The position numbers were made by a program, and so were the translations under genes. From assembly GCA_028820655.1 (NCBI GenBank), contig JAPPIK010000042.1:1-64000 (forward strand): 64,000 nt of DNA, read 5' to 3'. Below, in pieces: positions 7,620 to 8,296 of this stretch (the stretch's first letter is position 1; every line of letters begins with the position of its first letter). The DNA is from Candidatus Poribacteria bacterium. Lineage in GTDB: Bacteria > Poribacteria > WGA-4E > JAJDTR01. A model generated the notes under the pieces. That model was not told the DNA's origin, did no database searches, and worked only from the letters and a program-made list of their open reading frames with translations.

Positions 7620-8156
7620 TCATTCAAACTGTATTGTCAGTGCGGCAGCTATTTTTTTAACGATGCCGTTAGCGCGATTCCGAATCTGATCCGAGGTTAG
7701 ACTTTGTATCGGATGGTCGACAGTTATTGGTTCGAGGTCATCATAACCGAGTGCTTTCGCTTGGACCTTTCCAGCTGCAAAAAACACCTCCGAACAGATG
7801 GCAACTGATGGGATTCCGCGTTCCTCCAAGGCTGCTCCGTCGTGCATACTGCACGAAATGCATGAGCCTCAGTCGGCAAGCCCTTCAACGACGAAGTCGC
7901 AGCGATTGGCAAGCTGGACTATCAATTCGTCGGGAGCAGGCCGCGTGAATGTCGGTTTGTTGACGCGGACAACCTCCGCGACATCAAACTCTTCCCGCAT
8001 CAGTTCTTCCATGCGTTCGAGGAAGACATCGCTCCCATTCTTCCCGATGTTGAGCAAACCCATCGTCTTGTCGTTGAGGGTATCAAGGCGAGGGGCAAGA
8101 TACTTTGTGATCATTCCGCCTTGATCTTGCGGATTAAGTAGACTGACGGTTTCCAT
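7620..8156 (-). CDS. UGSC-family selenoprotein, UGA at 7869-7871 read as selenocysteine
   Basis: Ordinary translation stops at a TGA (7869-7871) after 95 codons, but the same frame continues for a further 82 codons to a normal stop. Across the TGA the protein reads VVEGLAD-U-GSCISCSMHDGA, which is the defining UGSC motif of the UGSC (seleno)protein family, with Cys99 and Cys102 nearby for a redox pair. The full product is 178 residues, with U at 96. The start ATG at 8154-8156 follows aaggagagg. A perfect hairpin 12 nt after the UGA fits a bacterial SECIS element. Translation would need SelA, SelB, SelC and SelD, none of which is in this window. The biochemical role of the family is not known to me; a thiol-redox function is inferred from the motif. 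Confidence 0.88.
7840..7856 (-). promoter_or_regulatory. SECIS-like hairpin after the UGA codon
   Basis: On the minus strand tcgtgca-gta-tgcacga forms a perfect 7-bp stem with loop GUA, starting 12 nt downstream of the UGA. Flanking ggctc and gagc...gcc segments can extend pairing. Bacterial SECIS elements sit just 3' of the UGA with a small G-containing apical loop, so position and form agree. Confidence 0.7.
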
Positions 8157-8296
8157 TATCCTCTCCTTAGTAGTGTGAAAAACAGGACATCTTTACTCTC
8201 GGTGCACTGGTGATAAGCTATCGATTTGAGATAGATTGCGAGACAACACGGATTGTACAGAGCTTGTTAGAATGCCTCACCTGGTTCTCATTGCGG

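Follow-up and report, generated by a model that had tools for sequence, protein, structure and literature searches.

The UGSC proteins are an already known family, reported in the 2008 GOS survey (PMC2398784) and treated again in a 2026 review (PMC13188914), and are represented by Pfam family PF24696 and NCBIfam family NF041046 ('UGSC family (seleno)protein'). The 2008 survey also mentions a UGSC protein fused with a domain termed 'Unknown_1' (its Fig. S1A). A second group of described proteins, the GrdB/PrdB subunits of the glycine, sarcosine, betaine and D-proline reductases (TIGR01917, TIGR04483, PF07355), resembles UGSC in that the C-terminal selenocysteine (Sec) regions align, with UxxC, a helix, CT/CS and an HP motif in common, whereas the long N-terminal part of GrdB has no counterpart in UGSC.

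Here we describe a further UGSC gene, found in the window (the whole stretch of 64,000 nucleotides analysed, from a Candidatus Poribacteria genome), together with a second protein that accompanies the family. Relative to a preliminary description of this DNA, the partner protein, the relationship to GrdB and the predicted fold are new. The partner, the GrdB kinship and a link to thioredoxin turn a family of 'function unknown' into the testable hypothesis of an enzyme complex.

A UGSC gene masked by UGA

The window gene is another selenoprotein masked by UGA (Table 1). Its product (METVSLL...EGLAD-U-GSCISCSMHDG...TIQFE) matches PF24696 at 169.7 bits (cutoff 25, residues 9-174) and NF041046 at 158.5 bits (cutoff 125), and is one more member of the family, with which it has in common the whole protein, the U/C-G-S-C motif, the Sec/Cys column and a bacterial SECIS. 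Translation runs from an ATG at 8156-8154 to a terminal stop at 7622-7620. Since this codon, too, is TGA, the recoded UGA has to be distinguished from the terminator by the cell; the hairpin follows the first TGA, that is, the recoded one at codon 96. Under table 11 only a 95-aa 5' piece is obtained (7869-8156), and a 3' piece starting with the ATG at 7847 would comprise 75 aa, as read from the sequence. A single Pfam domain (PF24696, E 8.3e-50) nevertheless runs across the TGA.

Table 1. Features of the UGSC locus (window coordinates).
Feature	Position	Strand	Details
UGSC-family selenoprotein gene	7620..8156	minus	178 aa, Sec = residue 96; PF24696 and NF041046 matches, 47-sequence poribacterial alignment
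In-frame UGA read as selenocysteine U96 (strongly supported)	7869..7871	minus	TGA: 47/47 Poribacteria, 10 distant genes; Cys: 9 others
SECIS hairpin	7840..7856	minus	7 bp, GUA loop; loop begins 19 nt past UGA
AAGGAG, likely ribosome-binding site	8163..8168	minus	6 nt upstream of ATG; read from sequence

The preliminary description had given the gene its exact coordinates, to which we add the strand, had correctly named the family, and had recognized both that D-U-G-S-C straddles the TGA and that the two halves make one protein, as the domain spanning both sides bears out. It had also held that automatic calling yields false short genes. This is what database records of Sec-type UGSC genes on plasmids look like: that of Acidovorax sp. 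T1 (L103) is a truncated gene comprising the 5' half only, and that of Paracoccus ferrooxidans (L112) consists of two hypothetical fragments. On the latter plasmid, selB lies a few kb from the UGSC gene.

The nearest genomes are those of other Candidatus Poribacteria, whose UGSC proteins are 63-83% identical to the window protein; all 46 of these other poribacterial loci have TGA at codon 96 and the same ADUGSCISCSMHDG motif. Identity to the proteins of other phyla is ~20-38%, and the poribacterial branch further differs from the wider family in that the partner gene is usually not adjacent. Distant Sec-type genes occur in Acidovorax, Paracoccus and three further genomes (G108, G116, G131). 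Cys-type homologues, which the preliminary description had suggested as a comparison, were found in haloarchaea, Roseovarius, Arthrobacter, Variovorax and Embleya (nine plasmid genes with TGC or TGT at the Sec codon), and their sequence is conserved on both sides of column 96, still alignable downstream of it. Across 26 diverse members [U/C]-G-S-C is invariant. Neither UGSC nor the ~340-aa partner was found in the viral contigs searched.

A partner protein

A second protein of ~340 aa recurs beside UGSC, or fused to it, at 12 of the 12 plasmid loci examined as well as at the UGSC loci of G108, G116 and G131; fusions include those of Variovorax boronicumulans (545 aa) and G108. The partner matched no family in Pfam or NCBIfam, and PDB sequence searches with it and with UGSC gave no useful relative. 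Its alignment (25 members) contains invariant D29, G30, P36, T37, C80, N142, R147, E181 and several glycines. The Unknown_1 domain of the 2008 survey is probably this partner, UGSC being joined to a conserved domain in either case, and the part of that survey available to us makes no mention of genome-wide co-occurrence of the two.

Such co-occurrence is marked. Among 146 genomes, 64 encode both proteins, 78 neither and four only one (UGSC alone in G023 and G072, the partner alone in G036 and G066), with a Fisher p of 2e-36 that overstates the association because the genomes are related. For the 73 closest genomes the corresponding counts are 60, nine and four (p 3e-8, again with related genomes). 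Outside the order, copy numbers are equal, at 3/3 in G116, 3/3 in G131, 1/1 in G108 and 1/1 in G076. The presence of the pair does more than mirror the Sec trait, since among the nine Poribacteria with neither protein, eight (all except G034) have selA above its cutoff. Eight UGSC-positive genomes, mostly incomplete bins, had no selA above cutoff.

In Poribacteria the partner gene is mostly distant from UGSC, with adjacency in G006 and G009; no conserved operon surrounds UGSC in this phylum, and its neighbours are uninformative. The window genome (G000) carries the partner gene on contig C2 (~116414-117430), unlinked to UGSC. In that region (L166, 108000-126000) it lies near a PALP-family enzyme, a class III aminotransferase, a Rieske-TPP enzyme and a 2-oxoacid:ferredoxin oxidoreductase pair. 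On plasmids of the haloarchaea Halorientalis litorea (L104) and Halalkalicoccus jeotgali (L106), a single UGSC gene of the Cys type lies between two different partner genes, a hint that the complex may be heteromeric.

Kinship with GrdB and a possible thioredoxin-fed reductase

Sixteen of the 26 diverse UGSC proteins match the GrdB model TIGR01917 (best 2e-4), and others match GrdF, GrdH or PrdB. In hhalign comparisons UGSC scored 95.5% (E 1.5e-8) against a GrdB of genome G120, with Sec placed on Sec, as against 0.5% for a thioredoxin domain. The similarity to GrdB is limited to the C-terminal ~80 residues, the single-sequence HMM matches are weak, and a full-length family match falls far below the cutoff (13.2 bits for TIGR01917, cutoff 602.2); a PF07355 search of the window genome gave no match. 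As to the partner, we considered whether it might be GrdE (the pyruvoyl subunit, GrdE/PrdA-like), and this was ruled out (hhalign 0.1%); no similarity to GrdB was seen either. Thus the UGSC system is not glycine reductase, and the analogy with that enzyme holds for one subunit only.

In an AF2 model of UGSC (pLDDT 82.5, pTM 0.80), helices alternate with five strands, and Sec comes right after strand 3. Its 50 best PDB matches, with modest TM values of 0.3-0.5, include azoreductase, FMN reductase, TIR and similar proteins, and are mostly flavodoxin-like or otherwise Rossmann-like. A Foldseek comparison with viral models yielded nothing informative. UGSC is thus a distant GrdB relative whose predicted fold is flavodoxin-like and not thioredoxin-like.

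Two observations connect the pair with thioredoxin. First, in G009, where partner and UGSC are adjacent, the partner begins with a thioredoxin-like domain containing CPTC (L168:5669-5971), which matches PDB thioredoxins at E 0.002 and Pfam Thioredoxin_2 at 7e-4, under the gathering score. Second, trxB lies beside UGSC and the partner in Roseovarius, Arthrobacter (there with trxA) and Variovorax SRS16, just three annotated loci having thioredoxin-system genes adjacent. Taken together, the GrdB kinship, the fold model, the G009 fusion and the trxB neighbours point to a thioredoxin-fed reductase. The other plasmid neighbours of UGSC, comprising CoA transferases, lyases, PEP-mutase-like proteins, DUF6282 and TRAP/TTT transporters, suggest that the UGSC system is linked to small-acid metabolism.

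We therefore propose the following chain. SelB and Sec-tRNA almost certainly decode the UGA of codon 96, aided by the SECIS hairpin, and the resulting UGSC protein would most likely serve as the catalytic Sec subunit of a two-protein reductase, the ~340-aa partner being the other subunit. The selenol of U96 would attack a substrate, probably a small organic acid or related metabolite, positioned between the two proteins; C99 would then resolve the selenenyl intermediate, after which thioredoxin and thioredoxin reductase would restore UGSC. We infer the roles of U96 as nucleophile and C99 as resolving residue from GrdB-like chemistry and the invariance of both residues. The chain as a whole, with a Sec-bearing catalytic subunit, a second subunit and thioredoxin as the source of electrons, seems to us somewhat probable. 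The broader proposition, that UGSC and its partner together constitute a novel type of thioredoxin-dependent Sec/Cys reductase with two subunits, present in bacteria and haloarchaea, distinct from the glycine and D-proline reductases and acting on a new substrate, we put at an even chance.

Alternatively, the pairing could be real and the role something other than reductive bond cleavage, for example detoxification, selenium/sulfur handling or regulation. The mixed neighbourhoods, in which no single substrate pathway recurs, would fit such a role, as would the doubled partner genes of the two haloarchaea. On the other hand, the enzymes and transporters at many of the loci are typical of small-acid catabolism and Sec occupies the same position as in GrdB, so that we regard a non-reductive role as rather unlikely, albeit worth keeping in mind.

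Still less likely, and in our view quite improbable, is that the selenoprotein is instead a general thiol-disulfide oxidoreductase with a thioredoxin-like fold. This was proposed in 2008, when the fold was suggested as likely (PMC2398784), and the 2026 review likewise groups UGSC with Trx-fold selenoproteins (PMC13188914). UGSC does have the UxxC motif in common with thioredoxin-like selenoproteins, but its predicted fold differs from theirs and there is no profile similarity. The strand order of the model is not that of thioredoxin, no thioredoxin occurs among the 50 best PDB structure matches, and the profiles favour GrdB; both topology and matches thus argue against the published fold. A dedicated partner in equal copy number also suggests a specific enzyme.

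Recoding of the UGA

That the UGA at codon 96 is read as selenocysteine by SelB and Sec-tRNA, aided by the SECIS, is strongly supported by sequence comparison, and we consider it nearly certain. The open frame through the TGA is, on the evidence of the Pfam domain crossing it and of the TGA in the 46 homologous poribacterial loci, far beyond chance.

According to published rules, a bacterial SECIS has a loop of 3-9 nt with G in one of its first two positions, a stem of 4-16 bp, a distance of 16-37 nt from the UGA and an MFE of at most -7.5 (PMC13188914). The preliminary description had placed a perfect 7-bp hairpin 12 nt beyond the TGA and proposed scoring it with a bacterial SECIS model; its position and pairing proved exact (TCGTGCA-GTA-TGCACGA, 17 nt), it conforms to every one of these rules (3-nt loop, 7-bp stem, 19-nt spacing), and it also covaries. 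Folding the 53 nt after the UGA gives an MFE of -15.1 kcal/mol, and folding the 52 nt from the UGA gives -17.6, the latter with a z of -2.0. All seven pairs form in 57 of the 57 Sec genes examined. Among 13 diverse sequences three pairs are altered on both sides, and the covariation score was reached by none of 500 shuffles and was lost when partner columns were slid. In the 47 poribacterial genes the degenerate hairpin codons S101 (TCG), C102 (TGC), S103 (AGT) and H105 (CAC) have no synonymous variation, in contrast to those outside the hairpin, where 67 of 68 fully conserved degenerate codons do vary. Cys-type homologues retain between two and seven of the seven pairs, a partial retention to be expected of genes that encode similar residues. 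Rfam found nothing meaningful at the hairpin.

The Sec insertion system that had been predicted to lie elsewhere in the genome is there. In the window genome (5.88 Mb, 95% complete), selA (590.8 bits), selB (351 bits) and selC (tRNA-Sec, 76.6 bits, anticodon tca) are clustered on contig C51, with selD (363 bits) on contig C22, and all four exceed their cutoffs. The notion that the UGA is a true stop, the gene being a pseudogene or the sequence in error, has nothing but the table-11 ORF in its favour; it is already contradicted by this full machinery, by the TGA kept in every poribacterial gene with conserved residues past it and by frozen synonymous sites confined to the hairpin, and we give it practically no credence.

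Other genes with in-frame UGA

The selD gene of the window genome (L018, 246651-247577 on C22) has an in-frame TGA of its own, and SelD is probably itself a selenoprotein. Most Poribacteria, the window genome excepted, also carry a second UGA-hidden gene (L136-L153), encoding a small protein that resembles the C-terminal part of GrdB/PrdB. Here the table-11 ORF ends in ...FLTPV and is followed in frame by U-P-[LMT]-C-NQSVGLIQRA; this protein probably corresponds to the marine 'PrdB' selenoprotein seen in metagenome surveys.
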